A DNA stretch of 32,220 nt from an uncultured Lachnospiraceae bacterium. Its GTDB lineage: Bacteria; Bacillota; Clostridia; Lachnospirales; Lachnospiraceae. Numbering within the stretch: position 1 is the first letter of the stretch; each line of letters begins with the position of its first letter. Location: the NCBI GenBank assembly GCA_946616305.1, contig CAMOIV010000007.1:1-32220 (forward strand), given 5' to 3'. Below, one piece after another: positions 17,789 through 32,220 of the stretch. Position numbers and translations under genes: made by a program. The notes under the pieces were generated by a model. That model did not search any database and was not told the DNA's origin. It was given only the letters and a program-made list of their open reading frames with translations.

Positions 17789-19918
17789 TTATTCTTTCCC
17801 TGATCCCTCGGGTCCGAAGTAGCAAAGTCCCAGCATGGTGATATCGTCAAACTGCGGAGCGGTTCCCACGAATTCGTCTACGCTTACCTTGACATTATGA
17901 AGTATCTTCTTAGGCTCGGCACCGGGTTCCTTATTCAGAGCCTTCAGCATCCTGTCCGTACCGTACAGCTCTTCATTGGCATTTGTAGCCTCCGGGACAC
18001 CGTCGGTATATACGTAGAGGGAATCTCCGGGATGGATCTCAAAGGTATGCTCCCTGAAGGGAAGACCCTCCATGGTGGCAACAGCGGGAGAATGCTTGTA
18101 TACCACAAGCTCATACTCTCCTCCTGCCCTGCGGATCACGGGATGCTCATGTCCCGCATTTGCAGCGATACCCTTACCTGTCTTAAGGTTGATTATAGCC
18201 AGCCATACCGTAACAAAAAGTCCTGCTTCGTTTCCTTCGCAAAGCTGATCGTTCACGTTGGACAGTATCTCGGCAGGTGAGAAATCCGAGCTTGCCTGAG
18301 TATGGTTCTTTATAAGTGTCTTTGCTATCACCATGAACAGTGCCGCCGGCACACCCTTTCCAGACACATCGGCCATGACAAGGGCCAGATGATCCTCATC
18401 CGCAAGGAAGAAGTCGTAGAAGTCTCCTCCCACCTCCTTTGCGGGATTCATGGTGGCATATATATCGAATTCCTTGCGATCCGGGAAGGCCGGGAAAACT
18501 CTGGGCAGCATGTCTGCCTGTATCTGGGTTGCCACGGAGAGCTCGGCTCCGATACGCTCCTTCTCTGCCGTAACCTCCTCTATGTTCCTCACATATGCCT
18601 TAAGGTCATCCTGCATGTCGTTGAATCTGAGAGCCAGCTGTCCTACCTCATCATTTGATTCAACGGGTATCTTCTGATTGAAGTTACCTTTTCCTATCGC
18701 CTGAACGTTCTTGGAGAGCTTCTGTATAGGACGTGTGATGGTGCCCGATACAGCGAAGGATATCATGATGACTATGATACCTATGATGGCGAAATAGATC
18801 ATGAACAGCCTGTATATACCGAAGAGCTTCTCCTGCATTCCCTGCTGGGAGATCTCTGTAAGCTCGTCACTCTCCGTCTTTGCCTTCTCGGCAGGAGCCG
18901 TAACCTCGGCGGTCTCTATGCTTGCACAGAATATCCATCCCGTCTCGGGCATCCTTGCGAAAGCCACATAGCAGTTGTCACCGTCATATGTGGTCTCCAC
19001 GATACCTGAATCCTGGGATGCCAGAGCATTTATAAGCTTTGAATCCAGGAAATGATCCGCAAGATCCGGATCGAAGTCCTCGTCGCTCATATCCTGATGA
19101 GCTATGAAATTCTGATCGGCATCAAGCACGAAGCACGATCCGGTCTCACCTATCTTAAGACTCATGATCTCGTCTATGATGCTGGTAAGGAGCATGTCGG
19201 ATGCCACAACTCCCGCAAGCTTTCCGTTCTTATCCCTGTAGCTCATGGCTGCCGTGATGCAGGTCCTGCCGTAGGAATCCAGGTATGTAGGCAGCCAGAC
19301 CAGTGTATCGGGATTCTCCATAGCCGCTATATACCAGTCTCTGGTTCTGGGATCGTAATCCTCATTGTATTTATTGGATCTGGAGTATCTGTATGAGATA
19401 CCGCTCTCGGTACCGATATAGATGTTATGCAGATTCTCATTATTCTCAAGGAAGGGGGCAAATGAATACTCACAGTTTGAGAGTATATTGACCTCATTCA
19501 TGACAGCTTCCGTCTCCCTGACGCCCTTTACCAGGAAATATTTCTGGCATGCCACATCCATCTCGGTCTCATCGGGCTTGGGGATGGGTTTACCCACAAA
19601 ATTATCACTGTTTTCATACAGGCTCTGCGTAAACTGTGTTGACTCCGTAACAACCCTGTTCATGGAGTAGAACTCGGCATTGGCAGCCTGCGCCTGTTTT
19701 ATGACCAGTCTTTCCAGATAGTCCTCCGCCTGCGACAGGAGGGAATCCTTGGCCACGGCCGATGCATTGACTCCCAGTGTGATGTTTGTCTGCTGGAACT
19801 CATCCACCATGGAATTCATGAAATAATAGGATGCTCCGAATACCACCAGAAGCGACCCCAGCGCCATGATTATGATAACCAGGAGAATCTTGATACTGAT
19901 CTTCATGTTCTTAAACAT
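17789..19918 (-). CDS. dCache-HAMP-SpoIIE/PP2C-type sensory serine phosphatase
   Basis: Two TM segments, YDPRTRDWYIAA dCache motif, TRPIQKLSKNVQAIGKGNFNQKIPV HAMP, ELSVATQIQADMLPR...VGGDFYDFF...MADVSGKGVPAALFM RsbU/SpoIIE phosphatase. Confidence 0.95.
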   Translation of the reverse strand: MFKNMKISIKILLVIIIMALGSLLVVFGASYYFMNSMVDEFQQTNITLGVNASAVAKDSLLSQAEDYLERLVIKQAQAANAEFYSMNRVVTESTQFTQSLYENSDNFVGKPIPKPDETEMDVACQKYFLVKGVRETEAVMNEVNILSNCEYSFAPFLENNENLHNIYIGTESGISYRYSRSNKYNEDYDPRTRDWYIAAMENPDTLVWLPTYLDSYGRTCITAAMSYRDKNGKLAGVVASDMLLTSIIDEIMSLKIGETGSCFVLDADQNFIAHQDMSDEDFDPDLADHFLDSKLINALASQDSGIVETTYDGDNCYVAFARMPETGWIFCASIETAEVTAPAEKAKTESDELTEISQQGMQEKLFGIYRLFMIYFAIIGIIVIMISFAVSGTITRPIQKLSKNVQAIGKGNFNQKIPVESNDEVGQLALRFNDMQDDLKAYVRNIEEVTAEKERIGAELSVATQIQADMLPRVFPAFPDRKEFDIYATMNPAKEVGGDFYDFFLADEDHLALVMADVSGKGVPAALFMVIAKTLIKNHTQASSDFSPAEILSNVNDQLCEGNEAGLFVTVWLAIINLKTGKGIAANAGHEHPVIRRAGGEYELVVYKHSPAVATMEGLPFREHTFEIHPGDSLYVYTDGVPEATNANEELYGTDRMLKALNKEPGAEPKKILHNVKVSVDEFVGTAPQFDDITMLGLCYFGPEGSGKE

Positions 19919-20864
19919 ATGCTACTCCTTTGTCAATGCTGTCTGTGCTTCGCGCAGATCTAAGTATGCTTTCAACCATATCGGAATAATCTATTCCCGC
20001 CAGGATCGCAGCCTTGGGTATCAGGCTCTTCTCCTTCAGTCCGGGCACTGCGTTGATCTCCAGAACATAGGGCAGACCGTCATCATCCGACACCATGAGG
20101 TCAACTCTGGCAAGCCCTCTGGCGTTGGTGACCATGCACACCCTCCTTGATATGTCCAGGATCTCATCATTGCACTCATCGGAAAGATCGCTGAACTTCA
20201 CCTCAAAATTACCTGTATTGAAGGTTATGAGCTTATTGCCCTTATCGTATTCATGATCCAGGTCTATGCCCTCCACTACCGGCAGAGCCTCAAACCTTCC
20301 GTCCTTTTCGTAAAATCCCACTGTAAAGAACCTGCCCTTTATATACCTCTCAAGAAAGATGGTATCATCGGACTCAAAGGCATCCATTATCCGCGGAATA
20401 TCAGCTTCGCTCTTTATAAGTGACATGCCGAAGCCTCTCCCTCTTGTAGGAGATTTGGCGACGAAGGGATAGCCGAATGCGGCATAGTCGTAATTCCCTT
20501 CGTCAAACTGCCGCCTTGTAAGGATCTCCCATTCGGGAGTTCTGATACCGCACCTGTCAAACAGCAGCTTGCAGAGTATCTTGTCATTTATCAGACAGGC
20601 CGAACGCATGTCGCTGCCGGTATAGGCTATGCCTTCATGCTCCAGCATGGCCTGAAAGGTTCCGTCTCCGTATCCCTTGCCCTGTACGCAAAGAAATACC
20701 ACATCGCAGCCTTTTTGCTTAAGCACGGATATTATATCCTTCTCGAACTCGATAAGCTCAACGGAGTACCCCCGGTTCTCAAGAGCTCTTGCTGCATCCC
20801 TCGCATTCAATATGGAAGCGGGACTCTCCTCCGGAGTGCCTCCGTAAACAACACCAACCTTCAT
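19911..20864 (-). CDS. D-alanine--D-alanine ligase-like ATP-grasp protein (divergent)
   Basis: MKVGVVYGGTPEE..., VLEINAVPGLKEKSLIPKAA; 8-bp overlap with phosphatase gene; 1 nt from the MFS stop. Confidence 0.85.
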   Translation of the reverse strand: MKVGVVYGGTPEESPASILNARDAARALENRGYSVELIEFEKDIISVLKQKGCDVVFLCVQGKGYGDGTFQAMLEHEGIAYTGSDMRSACLINDKILCKLLFDRCGIRTPEWEILTRRQFDEGNYDYAAFGYPFVAKSPTRGRGFGMSLIKSEADIPRIMDAFESDDTIFLERYIKGRFFTVGFYEKDGRFEALPVVEGIDLDHEYDKGNKLITFNTGNFEVKFSDLSDECNDEILDISRRVCMVTNARGLARVDLMVSDDDGLPYVLEINAVPGLKEKSLIPKAAILAGIDYSDMVESILRSARSTDSIDKGVAYV

Positions 20865-20865
20865 A

Positions 20866-22815
20866 TCAGTATAACTCCTTTCGTTTCACAGATCCGCCTA
20901 TGACAATGCTTGATGCCATAAATACCACCGCCATTATCGCAAAGGCTATGGCAAGAGCTCTTATGCCTGCCTGATAGCCAAGTATTATGACAGAGGCAAA
21001 TACAAACGGTCCGGTCATTTCCAGGATCTTCTTGACAAATGAAAGCACCGATAATGATTTGGAATCTCCCAGTTTCTTTATGGCAGGCAGTGACAGGAAG
21101 TAGTTGTTCTGTACTCCGAATCCTACACTGTCTGCGGTACCGAGTAATGCAGCCCCCAGGAAGGGAAGCAGCAGTCCTGCGCCAAGTCCCGGCAGGAAGA
21201 GACTGACTGAGATCAGTATGTTATATACAAAATTCAGGTTTTTCAATGCCTTGCCCTTGAATCTGGCAATAAGTACGGACAGGAAAGGTCCCGCATATAC
21301 TATAACGATACCGTAGAGCAGCTGAGCTCTACCCACATCGGTGACACTCCTTCCGATATCCTCAAAATACAGGGGCAGATAATAATTCTTGTATGATGCG
21401 GCTATGCTTGCCGGAGCTATCATGAGAAGTACGAATAGGACTGCCAGTACAGCCTGACCAACATTCATCCTGACCTGATCCGGATCATCCTTCTTTTCAG
21501 GCTTGGGCTCTGTACGAGGCATTATCGCATTCTCCATGCTTATGATGAATAAGGACGTGAGCACGGTCATCACGGCAGAGATCATGAATACAGTCTTATA
21601 TCCGAAAATGTCGGCAAGAATAGCTCCCAGAGAGGATCCGCAGTTCATACCGGCATAAAGTCCCGCATTGAGAAGGGCAAAGCCCAGCAGTCTCTCTCTG
21701 TCATCCTTTGTAAACAGCGAAAGATTCCTCAAGGTCATCCAGCAGAAGCCGTATCCGAGACCGACTATTGCCCTTGCAAGGATGAACATCACCAGATTGA
21801 CGGAAACAGCGGAAGCAAAGGTACCTGCCGCCACAAGCAGCAGTCCGGCTATGAAGGGCAGCTTCCATCCCTTCTTCTCAAGCAGCAGGGTCGTCAGGAA
21901 TATGGCTGCACAGGTAAGCAGCGTCTCTGCCGACTGGGGAAGTCCCGCAGCCGCAGCATCCGACATCCCCGGGAAGGGATTCATAAGTGATTTTGCCATG
22001 GTAGGGATAAAGGCTCCCGAAAGCCTTGATGAAAAATAGAATATAAAGGCTATCTGACGGATATAGTACAATGACGTCAGCATCTTATCGTTCGTTTCCA
22101 CTCTGTTATCGATATATGCGCTGCTCACCGCAACCTGAACCAGCCGTCTCGATATCACCCTGATCATCATCAGAACCATCTCAACGGAAAAGAACATGGA
22201 TGTTACAAGGACCGTCAGCAGGTTCAGTATTATGGCACGCAGCTGATCGTTCACAAATGATTTGTCAACGACAAAACGTATCTCCTTATCCTGCCTGAAC
22301 ACGTATGAATATACCGTATCCTCCATCTTCTGTCCTACCTTCGACTCATCCGATGAGTAGAGAACAGTGCCATCGGCATCGACTACGGATATCTCGGCTA
22401 TACCGTCAACCTGCAGCTCGGACAGTTTGTCATTAAGGTGCTCCTCATCGCACTGTTCGGCTATGGATATGTCTCTTCTTATGTTGGAATAGGTTTGATA
22501 GTTGAGTGTCTGATTCCTTACGGAAATGATCTCAAAGAAGAACGAGACCTGTATGATGATGAGCAGCGTAAGAAGCATGGCGTTTATATTGGCACTCTCC
22601 AGTTCCCCGTAGATGTTGAAAACAGGGCCCTTTGCATAGAAAGCAGCCAGAGCTATGCATGCTATGACAGTCAGTATGATAAGAACATTAAAGGGAACCG
22701 CCGTGTATTCCTTGGGCTCGTTTATGTTCAGTATTATGAGAAAAGCGGCAACCAGTACTATGGTCAGTACCGAACCGATAAAGAGATAAAGCCTTGTTTT
22801 TTTTGCACTATTCAC
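20866..22815 (-). CDS. MFS transporter with N-terminal extracytoplasmic sensor-like (Cache-like) region
   Basis: 649 aa; GTG start; N-terminal TMs, then a soluble segment ...EISVVDADGTVLYSSDESKVGQKMEDTVYSYVF..., then 12-TM MFS core. Confidence 0.8.
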   Translation of the reverse strand: MNSAKKTRLYLFIGSVLTIVLVAAFLIILNINEPKEYTAVPFNVLIILTVIACIALAAFYAKGPVFNIYGELESANINAMLLTLLIIIQVSFFFEIISVRNQTLNYQTYSNIRRDISIAEQCDEEHLNDKLSELQVDGIAEISVVDADGTVLYSSDESKVGQKMEDTVYSYVFRQDKEIRFVVDKSFVNDQLRAIILNLLTVLVTSMFFSVEMVLMMIRVISRRLVQVAVSSAYIDNRVETNDKMLTSLYYIRQIAFIFYFSSRLSGAFIPTMAKSLMNPFPGMSDAAAAGLPQSAETLLTCAAIFLTTLLLEKKGWKLPFIAGLLLVAAGTFASAVSVNLVMFILARAIVGLGYGFCWMTLRNLSLFTKDDRERLLGFALLNAGLYAGMNCGSSLGAILADIFGYKTVFMISAVMTVLTSLFIISMENAIMPRTEPKPEKKDDPDQVRMNVGQAVLAVLFVLLMIAPASIAASYKNYYLPLYFEDIGRSVTDVGRAQLLYGIVIVYAGPFLSVLIARFKGKALKNLNFVYNILISVSLFLPGLGAGLLLPFLGAALLGTADSVGFGVQNNYFLSLPAIKKLGDSKSLSVLSFVKKILEMTGPFVFASVIILGYQAGIRALAIAFAIMAVVFMASSIVIGGSVKRKELY

Positions 22816-23003: not shown

Positions 23004-23573
23004 TTAAAAACTCTCTATCCGAAAGACCGATGCCTTTGTTGCGTGAGCAGCCTCAAGCCCTACTTTGGAGTCTTCAAATATGACCGTATGATCCTCATCC
23101 ACGCCGAAATCCCTCATGGCAAGATAAAAGATCTCAGGATCGGGCTTAAAATGACTCACGTCCTCCTGGGCATATATCCTTTCTATATGATCATACAGTC
23201 CGAAATGCTTAAGAATGGCCTCAACATTGACCCTTGTGGCAGTTGTGGCCACTACCATGTGGTAGGTATCGTGACAGGAAAAGATAAAATCCTTAAGAGT
23301 CTGATTGACCTGTCCCATATCAAAGCACTTAAGATACATCTCCAGCTTCCTGTCATGTACTTTTTTAACGAGAGCCTGGTCGCCGCCTAAGACCTCCGGC
23401 AGAAAATCCCTGTAGTTCTTCCCGAAGCAGTGGTCTCTGTAGAATTCAAGGGTGAACTCAAGCCCAACCTCCTCCATGGCGATCCTGTATGACTCGTAAT
23501 TGATCATCAGGGTATCTATAAGGGTCCCGTCAAGATCAAATATCGCAAGTCTGTCCTTCATCTTATGGCTCAT
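23004..23573 (-). CDS. HAD-superfamily phosphatase (beta-phosphoglucomutase-like)
   Basis: FDLDGTLIDT, VATTAT, HFKPDPEIFYLAM, VIFEDSKVGLEAA; ATGA overlap with upstream gene. Confidence 0.93.
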   Translation of the reverse strand: MSHKMKDRLAIFDLDGTLIDTLMINYESYRIAMEEVGLEFTLEFYRDHCFGKNYRDFLPEVLGGDQALVKKVHDRKLEMYLKCFDMGQVNQTLKDFIFSCHDTYHMVVATTATRVNVEAILKHFGLYDHIERIYAQEDVSHFKPDPEIFYLAMRDFGVDEDHTVIFEDSKVGLEAAHATKASVFRIESF

Positions 23574-26500
23574 CCCTTCTCATCCGCGGAAATCCCCTCG
23601 ACGCCTTCCGATCTGCCGGCATCCTTGCCGGAATCCTTATCGTTGTCTACGGTTTTCCCGCTGTTATCTCCGGCATCCTTATCCTTGTCCTTGCCGGAAT
23701 CCTTATCGTTATCTACGGCTTTCCCATTGCTGTTTTCGGCATCCTGGCCGGCTTCTTTATCAACATCCCTGCCGTTTTCTCCGTTTTTATTGCTGCTATC
23801 ATCGGCATCCTTACCGGTACCCTTGCCGCTATCGGATGAAGGCTCCTCCGTATCCGGTCTGTTGATAGTCACTTCCGTAATGACCGTCTTGCCCTCAAGC
23901 TTTGCATTAAGCTTCTTTTCGGTCTCGATAAACTCCTCCGGGGTACCGAAGGATTCATATTCGTCAACATCAAATACCTTGATGGACAGCCCCTTCTTTA
24001 TGAGGACATTATATATGCCGCTCATGTAGAATTCATCATAGGGACAGTTCTTTATGTATTCCTTCGCTGCCTCAAGGAATTCTGCAGCATTTGAGAATCC
24101 GTAAGCGCCGGCGATGGCATGATCGCTTATCACCTTCTTCTCTGCTGTTTCCTTCGCATATCCGTTATCATCCGTCTTGACATAGCTGTACTTATCAAGA
24201 TCGGACTTGAATGTCAGCAATGTGCCGTCTGCACCGAAAGCTCCCGTATTATAGTAATCATACATTTTCTCGGATGTGAACAGGAGGTCACAGTCCATGA
24301 ATATGACGGGATTATCATTCTTTATGGTCTTAGCACCCTCCATGGCTGTAAGCAGAGCTCCCGGAAGCACCTTATCAAGCTGCACGATCTTTGCTGCCGG
24401 ATAGTATTCACGTATCCTCTTATCTATCTCATATTTTTCAACATGCTCTTTCAGCACGACAAAGACCATCCTGCCCACCTTTACATGGCCCAGAAGGGAA
24501 TCCACGGCCCATACGAAGAAGGGCTCTCCCGCCATCTTTATGAGCGGCTTGGGCATATCGTATCCGTCCTTTAAGAATCTGGTACCTGCTCCTGCCATGG
24601 GGAATACGATATTTATCCTTGCATTCTCCTTTTCCTTCTCTTTTAACCTCTTCTCCTCTTCGACGACCTTCTGTTCAAGCTTGTTCTTTCTCTTCTCGGA
24701 TCTGGCGGTTATCTTTGCTCTCGTTCTGTCAAGCAGCAGATAGAAGGTAGGCAGCAGGATTAGCGTCAGCAGAGTCGATGCACTCAGTCCGCCTACGAGC
24801 ACGCCTGCCATACCCTGCATCGCCATGGCATCCTTGGACCATCCAAGCGATACCGGTATCATGGCCATGACCGTAGTCATGGTCGTCATCAATATGGGAC
24901 GCAGTCTTCCGGATCCCGCATCCACCAATGCCTCTACGGTATCCATTCCTTTCTTCTGGTTCTGTATGGCCATGTCTATCAATATGATACCGTTATTGAC
25001 CACTATACCCGAGAGCATCAGTATACCCATGAGGGAGACCATCGAGATCTTGATGTTCATTATAAGAAGGAAAAGGATGGCTCCTATACCTGAAAACGGG
25101 ATACACAGCATTATGAGGATCGCATCGGCGATGGACTCAAACTGTACAGCCATGACAAAGAACACCAGGAATATGGCGATGAATATGGCCATTCCCAGGG
25201 CGGAGAACTCCTCTTCCATCATCTTGGACACAGTATCATCCAGGAAGCCCACATCCGGATCCATCTCCATATCGTCTATCTTTTCGTGGAGCTTCTCGGC
25301 TACCTCATCCCTGGTGGCGGCCGTCATTGTCGCCTTGACAAAATCCACATACAGACCGTCCTGCCTGTATACAGCCTGAGGCGCCGACACGAACTTAACA
25401 CTTCCGACTTCACTCAGCGGGACGGAAACACCCTTCGAGTTTGTAAAAGTCATAGAGGCAACGTCGCTGACATCCTTGAAATAATCCTCGGGGTATCTGA
25501 CGTTCACCTCATACTTCTTATTGTCTATGGTCACCTCACAGGCCTTCTTACCTGACATATTCGCATATACAAGACCTGCAAGCTGCTGCGGAGAGAAGCC
25601 TCTGGCAGTGGCCAGCACGGGATCGATCTCCACCATGGCCTTGGTTCCCGTTTCATTGTAATTGGAATTTGCATACAGAACCCCGTCGGTATCCTCCATG
25701 ATCTCTATGATCTTGTTGGAGGTTTCTTTGAGCTTGTCCAGATCTGCACTGGTGATATCAAATTCCTCGGTACTCACTGCAGACATGGATCCCATTCCCA
25801 TGGTGGATCCCGTCGATACATTGATCTCGCATATGTTGGAAAACCCTTTCAGTTTTTCATTCCACTCATCAACCAGCTGCTGAGTGGTATATGAAGAGTC
25901 CTCCTTTTTATAGGCACTGATCGTGGCAAGGGAATCCGATCTATCCTCTATCGTGGAGAAGCTCTTGACATCATCGTACCCTTTTACAAACTCTTCTACC
26001 TGTCTGACGGTACCGTCCATTGCTTCAAGAGAAAGATTGGGTCTGAATGTTATGGAGATATTGGCTATGCCTTCATCAGTTCCGCTGAAAAGCTCAGTCT
26101 TAAGGAAGGTTGCCAGATAACCGGTGAATACAAGCAGAGCGATGGCCACTACAAATACTGTTTTCTTCCATTTCAGCGCGAAACGGAGTACTTTCCTGTA
26201 AACCTTGGATAATTTCTTGAGTATCCTGTTAGTGATGATCTCACGCTTCTCTACGGGTTTATATATGGAAAAGCATAACGGTATCAAGGTAATGGCGGAT
26301 ATCAGGGATGACAGCAAGGCAAAGATGATGGTGGAGCCCAAAGGCTTAAACATCTGACCTGACAACCCCTTCATGACGGCAAGAGGAAGATAAACGACCA
26401 TAGTGGTAAGAGTCGAGCCTATTACCGCATTTATGACTATAGTGGTACCCTCGTATGCCGCCTCTTTAAAAGACAGTCCCGCCTGGTGCCGCCTGAAACA

Positions 26501-27721
26501 CATCTCTATCACAACGACGGCATTATCCGTCATCATTCCTATGGCGATGATCAGGGCTGCCATGGTGATGATATCCAGGGCAAATCCTGCCATATGCATA
26601 CATATGACAGTCGCCATAATGGATACGGGCATGGTACTGCCCACTATCAGGGATCCCTTCAGGTCTCCGAAAAAGATGAATATGATGAACATGGCAAGGA
26701 AGATAGCCTCCACCATGGTCTTTCCGACGCCCTTCAGTGTACTTATGATGGTATCGGCCATATCCTCGACGACTACGATATTAAGCTCCGGATACTTTTC
26801 CCTAAGCTTCTCCAATACCGGTTTCAACTGTCTTGACAGAGTAACCGAGGATGCAGACTGCTTTCTCTTGATACCTATGCTGACATTGCTCTCGCCCATG
26901 TACCTGGACATGGATGTTTTATCTGATACTGCATACTGTACCGTGGCGATATCATTCAGATGGATCGTCTGACCTTTGGATGTCGAGATGGGAACCTGCT
27001 CCAGTTTGGGAAGCGTATCGTATTTCACCTCCGAAGCAAGCTGCAGTACCTGATCGCCGTAATCGGCGGTTCCGGCGGGCATTGAGAAGTTTGCAGCTGC
27101 AATCGCATTTGCTATAGCCGTAAGATCCAGACCGTACTGATAAAGGTATTCGGGCATTACCTGTATCCTGATATATTTTTCATCTCCTCCGGAGACATTG
27201 GTCTGGGCAAGTGTACTGACCTTCTTAAGTTCCGGTATCACGTATTGATTGACCTCTGCCAGCACGTCCACGTTCTCACTGTTGCCGGTGACAGACAAGG
27301 TCACATCATCGATGGCTGAAGTATCTATCTCAAGTACCGTAGGCTCCTTTATATCGGTGGGCAGCTGCGGTCTTATCCCGTCAACAGCCTCCCTCACGTC
27401 ATTATATGCGTCATGCATATCCTTGCCGTACTCGTACTGGAGTATGACATAGCTCATGCCCTCATAGGACTCGCACATGACCGCTTTGATCCCCGAGATG
27501 GACTCTACCGCGCTGCTGATCTTGTCACTCACAAGCTCATCAACTTCCTCCGGAGTCGCTCCGGGATATATGGTATAGACAGCCATGATGGGGATCGACA
27601 TATCAGGCATCATCTTGAGTGTGATGCTTGACATGGATGTTATAAAGAATACCACCAATGCGATGATGGTCACTATGACTGTTACAGGTCTGTTAAGGAT
27701 CTCCCTTACAAGTCCCTTCAT
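23570..27721 (-). CDS. RND (HAE1-type) efflux permease fused at C-terminus to a nucleotidyltransferase domain and a charged repetitive tail
   Basis: 1383 aa continuous ORF; RND core (VTVIVTIIALVVFFITSMSSITLKMMPDMSIPIM...SGIVVNNGIILIDMAIQ) then EEEKRLKEKEKENARINIVFPMAGAGTRFLKDGYDMPKPLIKMAGEPFFVWAVDSLLG (NTP transferase signature). Confidence 0.93.
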   Translation of the reverse strand: MKGLVREILNRPVTVIVTIIALVVFFITSMSSITLKMMPDMSIPIMAVYTIYPGATPEEVDELVSDKISSAVESISGIKAVMCESYEGMSYVILQYEYGKDMHDAYNDVREAVDGIRPQLPTDIKEPTVLEIDTSAIDDVTLSVTGNSENVDVLAEVNQYVIPELKKVSTLAQTNVSGGDEKYIRIQVMPEYLYQYGLDLTAIANAIAAANFSMPAGTADYGDQVLQLASEVKYDTLPKLEQVPISTSKGQTIHLNDIATVQYAVSDKTSMSRYMGESNVSIGIKRKQSASSVTLSRQLKPVLEKLREKYPELNIVVVEDMADTIISTLKGVGKTMVEAIFLAMFIIFIFFGDLKGSLIVGSTMPVSIMATVICMHMAGFALDIITMAALIIAIGMMTDNAVVVIEMCFRRHQAGLSFKEAAYEGTTIVINAVIGSTLTTMVVYLPLAVMKGLSGQMFKPLGSTIIFALLSSLISAITLIPLCFSIYKPVEKREIITNRILKKLSKVYRKVLRFALKWKKTVFVVAIALLVFTGYLATFLKTELFSGTDEGIANISITFRPNLSLEAMDGTVRQVEEFVKGYDDVKSFSTIEDRSDSLATISAYKKEDSSYTTQQLVDEWNEKLKGFSNICEINVSTGSTMGMGSMSAVSTEEFDITSADLDKLKETSNKIIEIMEDTDGVLYANSNYNETGTKAMVEIDPVLATARGFSPQQLAGLVYANMSGKKACEVTIDNKKYEVNVRYPEDYFKDVSDVASMTFTNSKGVSVPLSEVGSVKFVSAPQAVYRQDGLYVDFVKATMTAATRDEVAEKLHEKIDDMEMDPDVGFLDDTVSKMMEEEFSALGMAIFIAIFLVFFVMAVQFESIADAILIMLCIPFSGIGAILFLLIMNIKISMVSLMGILMLSGIVVNNGIILIDMAIQNQKKGMDTVEALVDAGSGRLRPILMTTMTTVMAMIPVSLGWSKDAMAMQGMAGVLVGGLSASTLLTLILLPTFYLLLDRTRAKITARSEKRKNKLEQKVVEEEKRLKEKEKENARINIVFPMAGAGTRFLKDGYDMPKPLIKMAGEPFFVWAVDSLLGHVKVGRMVFVVLKEHVEKYEIDKRIREYYPAAKIVQLDKVLPGALLTAMEGAKTIKNDNPVIFMDCDLLFTSEKMYDYYNTGAFGADGTLLTFKSDLDKYSYVKTDDNGYAKETAEKKVISDHAIAGAYGFSNAAEFLEAAKEYIKNCPYDEFYMSGIYNVLIKKGLSIKVFDVDEYESFGTPEEFIETEKKLNAKLEGKTVITEVTINRPDTEEPSSDSGKGTGKDADDSSNKNGENGRDVDKEAGQDAENSNGKAVDNDKDSGKDKDKDAGDNSGKTVDNDKDSGKDAGRSEGVEGISADEKG
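23625..23747. repeat. Imperfect 66-bp-period direct repeat encoding a Lys/Asp/Gly-rich tail
   Basis: ttgccggaatccttatcgttgtctacggttttcccgctgttatctccggcatcctt (23625-23680) vs ttgccggaatccttatcgttatctacggctttcccattgctgttttcggcatcctgg (23691-23747). Confidence 0.8.
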
Positions 27722-29442
27722 TTAATCTCCTTCATTTCGTTCTTCTTCTCAGGCTTTATCTTCATCCCGTCCTTCAGGCTGCTGGCCCAGCTTAAGATGA
27801 CCTCGTCACTGTTGGTAAGTCCCGATACGATCTCGATATTGTCGCTGTCGGATATTCCGGCTTCGACATCCGTACGCTTTGCAACACCATTGTCATTGAC
27901 ATATACATATGCCTGATCCAAGTCGTAATATACGGCATCGATAGGCACCGTCATTGCATTTAAAGCAGATCTGGTAGCAGTCGATATGGAAACCGAAGAA
28001 CCTGCTATAAGATCCGATGCATCCGAAAGCACAGTGGCCTCTACCTTGAAAAGCCCCGTATTGGGATCTATGGTATCACCGACGGTAAGAAGCTTTGCCT
28101 TATAGTCTTTGCCGTTCTTGTTTACCAAAGCCTCTGCCCCGGGATAGAGGTTTGCTGCTGTCTGCTCTGCCACATAGAATACTATCTTGCATGGCGCATC
28201 ACTCTGGATGGTATACGCTGTTGACTGCTGACTGGCCATATTATGGAGCGATACATTGATAGCCGTGATGGTCCCGCTGACAGGAGCATTCACGACGGTA
28301 TGATCCAGCTGCAGCTTTGCCTGATCAAGTCCGGCCTGAGCGGTTTTTACAGCCGATGCGGCAGTTGTTACGCTGGATTCCGCACCTACGGCCTGTGCGT
28401 ATGCTCCGTACAGAGTCGTCGGCACGGTGTATGTGTTGTAATTATCTCTCTTCATCTCGGCGAGTCCGTAGGAACTCTGTGTCGCATAATACTGAGCTTC
28501 GGCAGAATCCGCCGTGTATTCGGCGCCCTTTTTCTTTGCATCAAGGGTTCCCAGGGCACCTTCCTGAGTAGCTATGCTGGTATTAATGGTATCAAGGTCG
28601 TCCTTTGCCGAATCAACAGCCAATCTAAAGGACTCCTCCGCGGACTCTCCAACATATCCGTGATCGGAAAGCCATGCCTGCTTCTGCGCCTCATCAGTGA
28701 TGCTGTTGAATTGCGCAAGTTCACTCTGCATCTCATCGTTCTTTGCGATGGCTCCCTCTCTCTGCGATCTCAGGGAATCAAGTGAAGCCTGAGTATTATT
28801 GATATCCTTTTGAAGCTCGGAAACATTGAGATTTGCTGATTTTAATGAGTCGTTGGCAGATCTTTTCTGCGCATATGCCAGATCCACGGCATTGTTCATT
28901 GCCGCTGCATTGTAGGGGATCTCTCCAACCGTCTGAGTTGCCTGAGCCTTTGTCGCATTTGCGGTTGCAGACTGTGCGTTAAGGGATGCCTTTGCGCTGG
29001 TGACCGAAGCCTCAGCCTGATTGACGGCTATCTGGAGTGCCGTATCATCTATCCTGAATAACAGATCGCCCTCATTTACATGATCACCGACCTCGAAATT
29101 CTTCTCAACGACCTCTCCTGCCACCATGGGAACAACCTGTACCTCACTCTCGGCCGTTACCGTTCCGGAGAAATTCGAACTTACGGAGATATCCTTGACA
29201 AAGGGTGTCGACACCTCAACGGGTATTATCTCCTCAGCACTGTTTTTGCTTGTACTCTCTTCGGCGTTATTCCCGCTGATGAATCTTCCTTTTATCTCAT
29301 CTATCTGCGTGCATCCGTTGAGAAAAAGGGAGGTGATGCATACGATCATCCCCGCCGTTTTCAAAAACCCACTATGACGTCTTCTCACAATGATGTCCTC
29401 TCGCGCTGTATACTTCTTGTTAGTTGGACTGTTACTGATCAC
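27718..29442 (-). CDS. Membrane fusion protein (HlyD/AcrA-type adaptor), lipoprotein
   Basis: Lipobox LFLNGC; biotinyl-lipoyl-like VVEKNFEVGDHVNEGDLLFRIDD, coiled coil, LDHTVVNAPVSGTITAI. GTG at 29388 is a plausible alternative start. Confidence 0.92.
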   Translation of the reverse strand: MISNSPTNKKYTAREDIIVRRRHSGFLKTAGMIVCITSLFLNGCTQIDEIKGRFISGNNAEESTSKNSAEEIIPVEVSTPFVKDISVSSNFSGTVTAESEVQVVPMVAGEVVEKNFEVGDHVNEGDLLFRIDDTALQIAVNQAEASVTSAKASLNAQSATANATKAQATQTVGEIPYNAAAMNNAVDLAYAQKRSANDSLKSANLNVSELQKDINNTQASLDSLRSQREGAIAKNDEMQSELAQFNSITDEAQKQAWLSDHGYVGESAEESFRLAVDSAKDDLDTINTSIATQEGALGTLDAKKKGAEYTADSAEAQYYATQSSYGLAEMKRDNYNTYTVPTTLYGAYAQAVGAESSVTTAASAVKTAQAGLDQAKLQLDHTVVNAPVSGTITAINVSLHNMASQQSTAYTIQSDAPCKIVFYVAEQTAANLYPGAEALVNKNGKDYKAKLLTVGDTIDPNTGLFKVEATVLSDASDLIAGSSVSISTATRSALNAMTVPIDAVYYDLDQAYVYVNDNGVAKRTDVEAGISDSDNIEIVSGLTNSDEVILSWASSLKDGMKIKPEKKNEMKEIK

Positions 29443-29479: not shown

Positions 29480-29507
29480 ATTATATCAGAGATATGGCAT
29501 TTGTCAA
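29480..29507 (-). promoter_or_regulatory. Consensus SigA-type promoter for the MFP-RND-NTase-HAD operon
   Basis: Minus strand TTGACA - 16 bp - TATAAT; the -35 overlaps the stop codon of the upstream gene. Confidence 0.75.
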
Positions 29508-31381
29508 TTAACGAGACTGTCGGCACATAAAAGCATTCCGGCAAAAAAGATGACCGCCCTGTCCTGATCCTGCTCTATCTTATACGGCATCAGACGAAGC
29601 CAGTTTATGATCTCATGTGAATAAATGCTTTTCACCTCATCCTCTGTATATCTCTCCCTTATATGAGCATCAAAAGCCTTGTGCAGTTCCCTGTATGCAT
29701 CTGACATACCGGATATGAAGGAGATCTCGTTTCCCGAAACCCTGCACCTTTCGGTACGCATGAGGAATTCATAGCCTCCGTGTATGGACTGCAGTATCTT
29801 AGCTATATCGATAAACTTGGAATCCAGGATATTGCCTGTATTGGGATCGATCAGATAATATCCCTTTTCGCTGACGTAGGGAGGCACTGTTATGATGTTC
29901 TCCACCGTCACATCCCCGTGTATCCTCGATATCTTATCATCTGCAAATATCCGAAGCAGCCTGTCCTTATCCATTAACTTAAGGAGATGCTTCATACCGG
30001 CCACCCTCCTGCCGTTGATCACAAGCTCGTCATATCTTGCCAGTTCATTGATCTCATGACAGGCCCAAAGCTTCTCTATATTGGCTGCAACCTTTTCGTC
30101 TATGTATCTTTCGATCACTGCCCTTTCCGGCTTTCTTGTATCGAGAACGTAGAGATTCTCCTCAAGATCCGACAATACTCTCTTAAGTATCTCCAGGGAC
30201 TGCTCCACGGGATTGGTATGGATGTATTCGAAAAAGCCCGTAGCACCCGTCACTGACGGCATGTCATAAAGGCTCATGTTGTCTTCCCTGCGCATGAATA
30301 TGATCTCCGGCAGAGGCAGCACTTCCCTGTTTGCTCTGATCCAGTCCATCTGATCCTTCAGCTTTTCAGCTCCCGCTCCTATGACATATTTGCGAAATAC
30401 CGTCTGGCCGTTCCTGATAGCAAGAAGTGTTGTCGCATCAGAGCCTGCAGAATGATCGCTTATTATCTGTATGTCGCTGTTAGCCTCCAGATATCCTCTG
30501 ACATAAGCGCTTCTGTCCCCTTCGAAATAGTTTTCGAGAAAAGCTCTCCTGTCCGACTCGTGAAGCTGAGGCAGCAGCATCAATGTCTGCTCCGGCTTAT
30601 CCTTCAGGCTCTCTCTGCTTCCCGCAACGCCGTATACCATAAGGATCAGAGATGAGAGCACATGATACATGGTGATCCATAATGTACCCTTTGCTATGGT
30701 TCCGGTATCCATGGAGGAGCTTGAGAACAGCAGGGAGAATATACTCATGAGCGAGGTCTCTACTCCGTTCATGGTAAGGGTCAGAGACAAAAGATAATAG
30801 GATGCTATGTAGAGTCCCCACATAAGCATGGTCATGAAGGCGAGCCTGCTCTTCTTTATCTTGACTGCTATATCCCTGAAGGCCGTGATTATGGACCAGA
30901 AGAAGAACATGAGCTTCAGCTCTATCCTCTCGTTGAATATGCCGGTAAAAAGACGGATGCCCTTCTTCACTCCCCTCTTCATAAGAGTCACACAGGCAAT
31001 GGCCAGGATCGCCGCCGCGGAAAGTATGATATAGAATATGGCAGATTCCCTGACATCCGTATTGGATGCGGGATTCGACAGATACAGGATGAGATATATC
31101 ATCCCTACTACTATGATATCAAGTATCCTGTCCACTACAACCGTGGCGAAAGCAAAAGAAAAGCCGTTCTTCATCTTCCGCCCAAGGATGAAGGATCGCA
31201 AAAGATCGCCCAGTCTGAAGGGCAGTATGAGGTTAACGAGATAAGAAGCTGCAAGTCCCTTGGCAAACTCGGGAAGCTCAACCTCCTCGTATATGTCAGA
31301 GAACTGCTTCTGCCTCATTGATTTCACAACATGTCCCGCTACTATGAGTCCTATGGACAGGATAAACAATGCGTAGATCAT
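29504..31381 (-). CDS. LPG_synthase_TM/UPF0104 flippase-like membrane domain fused to an APH-like kinase/phosphotransferase domain
   Basis: N-terminus ...AASYLVNLILPFRLGDLLRSFILGRKMKNG...VVDRILDIIVVG; C-terminus ISRIHGDVTVENIITVPP...YYLIDPNTGN (HGDxxxxN and IDP motifs). Confidence 0.85.
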   Translation of the reverse strand: MIYALFILSIGLIVAGHVVKSMRQKQFSDIYEEVELPEFAKGLAASYLVNLILPFRLGDLLRSFILGRKMKNGFSFAFATVVVDRILDIIVVGMIYLILYLSNPASNTDVRESAIFYIILSAAAILAIACVTLMKRGVKKGIRLFTGIFNERIELKLMFFFWSIITAFRDIAVKIKKSRLAFMTMLMWGLYIASYYLLSLTLTMNGVETSLMSIFSLLFSSSSMDTGTIAKGTLWITMYHVLSSLILMVYGVAGSRESLKDKPEQTLMLLPQLHESDRRAFLENYFEGDRSAYVRGYLEANSDIQIISDHSAGSDATTLLAIRNGQTVFRKYVIGAGAEKLKDQMDWIRANREVLPLPEIIFMRREDNMSLYDMPSVTGATGFFEYIHTNPVEQSLEILKRVLSDLEENLYVLDTRKPERAVIERYIDEKVAANIEKLWACHEINELARYDELVINGRRVAGMKHLLKLMDKDRLLRIFADDKISRIHGDVTVENIITVPPYVSEKGYYLIDPNTGNILDSKFIDIAKILQSIHGGYEFLMRTERCRVSGNEISFISGMSDAYRELHKAFDAHIRERYTEDEVKSIYSHEIINWLRLMPYKIEQDQDRAVIFFAGMLLCADSLVN

Positions 31382-31696
31382 TCAGTCCGATACCTCAGAA
31401 AAATCATCATCCTCTATCCTATCATTTATCTCACGCAATTCAAACTCCTCTTCGCTCCGGTCAAGAGTCCTCAGCATATTGAGAAGCTTTGATGCATATT
31501 CCCGGCCCTCCATCACATCGGCATGCTCTATGGTGATGCTTACGGGATACATCTCGCCAAGCATATCATGCAGGGCATCAAGATTGGATCCGTAATAGTC
31601 CGCAAGTCCTAAAACCTCTTTAATATATGCATGTGCCTGCTCCCTGCCTTGCATCTTTCTTCCGTCAAGGGTAAATGACCTTATATTATCCCTCAT
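31382..31696 (-). CDS. Barstar-family ribonuclease inhibitor
   Basis: 104 aa; FTLDGRKMQGREQAHAYIKEVLGLADYYGSNLDALHDMLGE...PVSITIEHADV matches barstar fold motif. Confidence 0.92.
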   Translation of the reverse strand: MRDNIRSFTLDGRKMQGREQAHAYIKEVLGLADYYGSNLDALHDMLGEMYPVSITIEHADVMEGREYASKLLNMLRTLDRSEEEFELREINDRIEDDDFSEVSD

Positions 31697-32220
31697 TTTG
31701 CAACCACCTCGTCCTCACCGTTTACCGTGTATTCGGTAAAGGTATCATAATGATCCTCAGTATAAAAATACAGTCCGTCGTCGGAATAAACAAGCCTTTT
31801 CGGTCCCCGGCTTCCCTTGCCGTCCGTGTCGATATCGCATTCGAAATACTTCCGGCCCTTCTTATCCGGCAGAGTTCCTTCATAATTACTGAACCTGTCT
31901 CCGCCGATGGCTGCACCTTCTATATACTTCTGTACACTGCCGCCCTCCCAGCCTAAGGCTCTGGCGGCTTTCTTCGTCACATAATTGTCCGGGAGCTCAC
32001 CGTAGGTCTCAAGGTAGAGGATCACATGATCGAGGTCATAATAAAACTCCCCTTCCCTTACATAGTCTGAGGTATCGAACCCGATTTCGTCTGCGGCGTC
32101 GGTCTTGACCTCTTCTCCGGCGTCGGTCTTGACTTCGTCTGCAGCATCGATCCCGGCTTCGTCTGCGGCGTCGGCCTTGACTTCGTCTGCAGCATCGATC
32201 CCGACTTCGTCTGCGGCGTC
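31693..32220 (-). CDS. Barnase-family ribonuclease with acidic repetitive N-terminal spacer; N-terminus beyond window edge
   Basis: Frame open to 32220: (DAADEVGI DAADEVKA DAADEAGI DAADEVKT DAGEEVKT DAADEIGF) then YYDLDHVILYLETYGELPDNYVTKKAARALGWEGG...RKYFECDIDT...KRLVYSDDGLYFYTEDHYDTFTEY. Confidence 0.93.
   Translation of the reverse strand, partial: DAADEVGIDAADEVKADAADEAGIDAADEVKTDAGEEVKTDAADEIGFDTSDYVREGEFYYDLDHVILYLETYGELPDNYVTKKAARALGWEGGSVQKYIEGAAIGGDRFSNYEGTLPDKKGRKYFECDIDTDGKGSRGPKRLVYSDDGLYFYTEDHYDTFTEYTVNGEDEVVAK
32077..32220. repeat. 24-bp tandem repeats (6 copies visible, continuing off-window)
   Basis: 8-aa unit DAADEVxx x6 in the barnase reading frame. Confidence 0.9.

Follow-up and report, generated by a model that had tools for sequence, protein, structure and literature searches.

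In the GDP-heptose pathway, HddA-GmhB-HddC, a kinase, a HAD phosphatase and a nucleotidyltransferase (NTase) act together. The phosphocholine pathway has the kinase LicA and the nucleotidyltransferase LicC (PMC6697681), and NTases of this broad fold are often fused to enzymes of their own pathway, as in PntC-AEPT and Ppm-NTase (PMC6697681). Among transporters, the RND exporter MmpL7, which acts in PDIM export in Mycobacterium tuberculosis, binds the biosynthetic enzyme PpsE, and coupling of synthesis to export has been proposed for this pair (PMC1238737). SwrC/YerP are Gram-positive MFP-RND pumps of the NFE type (named in PMC8277102).

Our search of the open-access literature found no published RND-NTase fusion. 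Here we describe such a fusion in an uncultured Lachnospiraceae bacterium. To our knowledge, the cargo of most Gram-positive RND pumps is unknown, and a covalently attached biosynthetic enzyme, with an adjoining kinase, HAD and flippase, is a direct and testable clue to the cargo of this one.

A permease and a nucleotidyltransferase in one reading frame

The window, by which we mean the whole stretch of 32,220 nucleotides that was analyzed, carries the fusion locus, with genes in the order LK, MFP, RND-NTase and HAD, where LK denotes a flippase-like transmembrane domain fused to a predicted kinase domain (Table 1). The fusion gene overlaps both the MFP gene and the HAD gene by 4 nt (ATGA at the HAD end).

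Table 1. Positions of the features of the fusion locus in the window
Feature	Position	Strand	Evidence
LK: flippase-like TM domain (LPG_synthase_TM) joined to a putative kinase domain, APH/LicA-like	29504..31381	-	PF03706, 53.9 bits; HGD..N and IDPNTGN motifs
Sigma-70 consensus promoter, 12/12, TG preceding the -10 hexamer	29480..29507	-	pattern scan
RND adaptor (membrane fusion protein, MFP), predicted lipoprotein, LNGC lipobox	27718..29442	-	TIGR01730, 194 bits, cut-off 94.9
RND permease-nucleotidyltransferase fusion gene	23570..27721	-	1383 aa, single open frame; fusion also present in 10 further genomes
RND permease domain (ACR_tran), residues 8-997	24731..27700	-	PF00873, 614.8 bits, E=3e-184
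Linker after TM12, residues 998-1034	24620..24730	-	predicted helix continuous with TM12; zero indels in 11 species
Nucleotidyltransferase (NTase) domain, residues 1035-1273	23903..24619	-	PDB 4evw by sequence and fold; invariant residues
Charged low-complexity tail, residues 1274-1383 and stop	23570..23902	-	unconserved among orthologues
HAD hydrolase, beta-phosphoglucomutase-like	23004..23573	-	PF13419, 93.8 bits; TIGR02009 under cut-off

The fusion frame contains no internal stop and encodes, from N to C terminus, a complete ACR_tran permease, a charged helical linker, the NTase and a low-complexity tail. The sequence-only reading had described a permease and an NTase in one uninterrupted frame of this length, and the frame is indeed open and matched in 10 further genomes; its placing of the NTase at about 23887-24616 was correct to within a few codons. 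In the alignment of all 11 fused species, the stretch from TM12 to the NTase is of equal length and shows no insertion or deletion. TM12 and the linker are predicted to form one helix leading to the NTase (pLDDT 69), in models that were built from 5-6 sequences and reached a pLDDT of 69 for the fusion/NTase and 61 for the kinase. The cytosolic location proposed earlier for the NTase is supported by its position straight after TM12. Identity of the tail among orthologues was 13-30% where more than 50 sites could be aligned, and 43% in one pair over 14 sites.

The source genome is a fragmented MAG, 84.5% complete, as would suit a fused frame produced by a frameshift, misassembly or read-through artefact. 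However, the same fusion, with an identical junction and an identical linker length, is present in 11 genomes, and an artefact at the linker is therefore excluded; we attach practically no weight to this explanation. Likewise, the concern that the fusion might have no homologue and its linker a frameshift or assembly error was not borne out: fused homologues exist, with open frames in 10 genomes. Production of a separate NTase from an internal start was also rejected, because the window's linker contains no in-frame ATG or GTG upstream of the signature Met (TTA/TTG-type codons give no Met either) and the alignment of fused relatives shows no conserved Met in the linker.

The permease covers profile positions 5-1020 of the 1021 in ACR_tran (cut-off 28 bits). 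It had been described as a full HAE1-type permease. The full-length assignment holds, but the HAE1 type fits only loosely: the scores for the HAE1 model TIGR00915 (343.8 bits against a cut-off of 940.35) and for NF033617 (577.7 bits against 1250) fall below threshold. Of the residues of the AcrB proton relay, Asp-Asp in TM4 and Lys in TM10, only part is retained. Whether fused or not, the orthologues have TDN in TM4 (VDN in some) and VVNNG in TM10, so that every pump orthologue compared lacks the TM10 Lys and the second Asp of TM4. This absence suggests that energy coupling of the pump may differ in detail.

The NTase domain matched the Pfam models PF12804 (NTP_transf_3; 20.0 bits) and PF01128 (IspD; 21.5 bits) below the cut-off of 27, and its region also gave a weak match to the Arch_glmU model. 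PDB entry 4evw was a clear match by sequence (E=1.4e-17) and the best match of the predicted fold (pLDDT 69; E=2e-12), followed by HddC (5xhw; 3e-11) and RmlA (4e-10). The signature PMAGAGTRF..PKPL is intact, with PMAGAGTRF at 24601-24575, as are the EK pair and the Asp of the metal site. Across the alignment of the NTase family, the window included, the positions G-x-G-x-R-F, PK, Asp and EK do not vary. These residues bear out the claim that the domain is complete, catalytic residues missing on alignment having been the proposed grounds for doubting it. By its signature residues and predicted fold, the domain is a GT-A-like, sugar-type nucleotidyltransferase, and it would yield an NDP-activated (CDP-, UDP-, dTDP- or GDP-) product. 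The likeness to capsule-type, BcbE-like nucleotidyltransferases proposed in the sequence-only reading is a possibility; among the papers listed, none dealt with BcbE itself. A 581-aa protein of another Lachnospiraceae genus (L156:3429-5174) consists of two tandem NTase domains, which are two separate genes in L076.

Distribution and single origin of the fusion

We searched 48 genomes of the genus and counted the fusion as present when the NTase lay within an open frame longer than 1100 aa. The fusion was found in 11 of the 48, the window's genome included, and the 10 further open frames span 1119-1379 aa; some carriers are Lachnospiraceae MAGs obtained from the rumen or from related samples. 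Outside the genus, samples of 396 genomes from the family, 388 from the class and 398 from the phylum, sets that share some members, yielded no fusion. The fused proteins form a single clade in both the RND tree (support 100/100), where the nearest outside row is the unfused G020, and the NTase tree (support 100/99). This clade comprises 13 genomes, two of them, G015 and G038, with an RND truncated at a contig end. The orthologues share about 60-80% protein identity, and none is split in the 11 fused species sampled. In comparisons of fused orthologues whose synonymous changes were not saturated, the NTase gave a dN/dS of 0.08-0.17 and the RND domain one of 0.07-0.13, indicating purifying selection on both. 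In three fused species at least 93% complete (G002, G013 and G044), the fused copy is the sole NTase of its family found. These data indicate that the fusion arose once and has been retained by natural selection in one lineage of gut/rumen Lachnospiraceae, a history that points to a physical tie between precursor activation and the pump.

The pump itself is older than the fusion and common to the genus, being present in 45 of the 48 genomes and encoded as an MFP-RND gene pair wherever its surroundings were read. Outside the fused clade its C terminus is a charged tail of variable length that carries no NTase. Because the pump is so widespread and also occurs with no NTase attached, what it originally carried may have had nothing to do with the product of the NTase.

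The NTase signature is intact in 10 of the 11 fused proteins. In the exception, from G035 (locus L049), GAGTRF and the EK pair are gone from the fused NTase, and the RND and linker are still conserved; the domain can thus persist without NTase activity. Neither LK nor HAD was found in G035, a genome 79% complete whose contig begins inside the RND, and the pattern fits decay of the whole pathway. This species and the unfused sister species provide a natural experiment.

The nearest unfused NTases adjoin a flippase-like protein and a kinase, encoded by two genes in L050, L051, L053 and L071 and by a single LK gene in L052 and L057. The two-NTase/cupin/HAD loci of other genera (L111-L114) were rejected as relatives because they belong to other NTase clades in the tree. 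At a further group of loci, spread over many of the other genomes in the genus (L054-L056, L058-L068 and L073-L075), an NTase of the same family adjoins a conserved radical SAM/SPASM protein, not a kinase, and purine-synthesis-like genes are often present as well.

Partner genes of the nucleotidyltransferase

The promoter lies at the LK/MFP border, upstream of MFP, RND-NTase and HAD. The putative kinase domain of LK carries HGD..N and IDP motifs like those of APH-like kinases. Its best fold match was LicA (4r7b; E=4.8e-3, from a low-confidence model with pLDDT 61); one family member matched Pfam APH at E=0.1, and a PDB sequence search for the kinase substrate gave no real match. Of the 13 genomes of the fused clade, 11 carry LK and 10 carry HAD, as against 3 and 2, respectively, of the 35 other genomes in the genus. 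One of the three LK genomes outside the clade is G019, where LK adjoins MFP, and the two HAD genomes outside it, G028 and G033, both hold the unfused module. These genus counts are phylogenetically non-independent; independent evidence comes from the operons of other genera. In L107, L108 and L109, the NTase, LK and HAD adjoin without a pump, and in L107 an epimerase-like (NDP-sugar) gene and a GT2 adjoin them as well. At L152, a locus from a different clostridial order, each of the overlaps joining NTase, LK and HAD is 1 nt long, and a GT2-like gene lies upstream. The link to an envelope metabolite or glycan suggested earlier is thus supported by neighbourhood and phyletic profile, NTase, LK and HAD occurring together in other genera that lack the pump at these loci.

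In seven genomes of the fused clade (G002, G008, G013, G015, G029, G038 and G044) the HAD homologue lies away from the fusion and is 42-48% identical; the window, G006 and G039 are the exceptions to this pattern. These homologues, some of them next to rhamnulose-aldolase-like genes, might represent another HAD. A link to the rhamnose pathway (RhaD and RhaA beside HAD homologues in several genomes) is possible, but these HADs, at 42-48% identity, may be unrelated. A GT-C-like gene of 541 aa that neighbours HAD in other fused species was discarded as a specific partner; being present in 46 of the 48 genomes, it is uninformative.

Two further gene groups in the window may be recorded. A barnase-like ribonuclease and barstar pair (31382-32025, minus strand) lies directly upstream of LK, the barstar stop abutting the next ATG. 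At 17789-22815 (minus strand), three tightly packed or overlapping genes form an unusual trio: an MFS transporter extended at its N terminus by about 250 aa, a D-Ala-D-Ala ligase-like ATP-grasp protein and a dCache-HAMP-SpoIIE phosphatase.

Proposed function and relation to described systems

From gene content, the likeliest origin of the locus is the merging of a conserved three-part module (kinase with flippase-like transmembrane domain, HAD and NTase) with an MFP-RND exporter. The combination of a putative APH/LicA-like kinase, a HAD and an HddC-like NTase suggests a route from kinase through phosphatase or mutase to nucleotidyl activation, and the LPG_synthase_TM part hints that a lipid-linked product is flipped. 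On balance, we favour a selectively kept, once-evolved fusion whose NTase would make an NDP-activated precursor destined for a glycan or a lipid headgroup of the envelope and would act with the flippase and MFP-RND export. The LicA-like kinase would phosphorylate a compound X, and the HAD would trim or isomerise the phosphate of X, as GmhB does between HddA and HddC. The NTase would then activate X-phosphate to its NDP form, a separate transferase would load X onto a lipid carrier, and the LPG_synthase_TM domain would flip lipid-linked X. RND pumps of this type usually collect their substrates within the membrane or on its outer face rather than taking NDP-sugars from the cytosol, and we know of no route by which an RND pump directly exports a cytosolic NDP-sugar. 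The MFP-RND pump might remove the product, or a by-product, from the outer leaflet of the membrane, with the rigid helix holding the NTase at its cytosolic face; synthesis and export of the module's product may in this way be coordinated. A more specific picture, which we offer tentatively and regard as doubtful, is a Gram-positive synthesis-export machine, a trimeric RND pump bearing three NTases on rigid helices, in which the precursor is made beside the flippase and the lipid-linked product is passed to the pump.

The age of the pump and its presence across the genus also suit an alternative explanation, in which the NTase of the module is active and the RND serves only as a membrane anchor and to equalise expression, transport and activation being unrelated. 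Relatives of the module that are not fused manage with no pump close by, and because the flippase-kinase already resides in the membrane, it would be enough to anchor the NTase in its vicinity. Against this, LK, MFP and RND-NTase adjoin in fused species, and a constant linker length exceeds the need of a loose anchor; we consider the anchor possible, though not probable. Loss of a stop codon between operon neighbours might also have produced a near-neutral fusion of no functional benefit. Overlapping neighbour genes ease such events, and the charged tail of unfused RNDs could have served as a ready linker, but this is unlikely, given that the gene has stayed whole in every one of the 11 fused species sampled, whose proteins are about 60-80% identical. 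Slightly less credible still is a regulatory or structural role, with the NTase responding to a nucleotide or phosphorylated ligand so as to control gating or assembly of the pump. The in-frame domain retained in L049 after loss of the catalytic signature speaks for such a role; however, the other 10 signatures are intact, and the failure to find LK or HAD in G035 (79% complete) fits loss of the pathway rather than a switch to regulation.

The favoured reading, an activating NTase working with flippase and exporter, finds partial counterparts in several described systems. HddA-GmhB-HddC offers the same set of kinase, HAD and NTase, and HddC (5xhw) is the second-best fold match of the window's NTase, but its kinase is of the GHMP rather than the APH type, and the window's HAD is HAD_2/PGMB-like. 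The lic pathway (LicA-LicB-LicC) resembles the locus in having a transmembrane partner and an NTase for surface decoration, together with a kinase whose fold the window's putative kinase may share; it has no counterpart of the pump fusion, LicC is absent among the NTase fold matches listed, and the window shows no evidence of choline. PntC-AEPT and Ppm-NTase differ in being soluble enzymes of phosphonate pathways with no transporter. Pumps of the SwrC/YerP type are likewise ACR_tran pumps of Gram-positive bacteria, the window's pump having a predicted lipoprotein adaptor, but they carry no enzyme domain. MmpL7-PpsE, like the window, brings together an RND exporter and a cytosolic biosynthetic enzyme; unlike it, the association is non-covalent, the enzyme is a polyketide synthase, the pump is of the MmpL (HAE2) type and no nucleotidyltransferase is involved. 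The fusion described here would be a covalent version of the coupling proposed for MmpL7.
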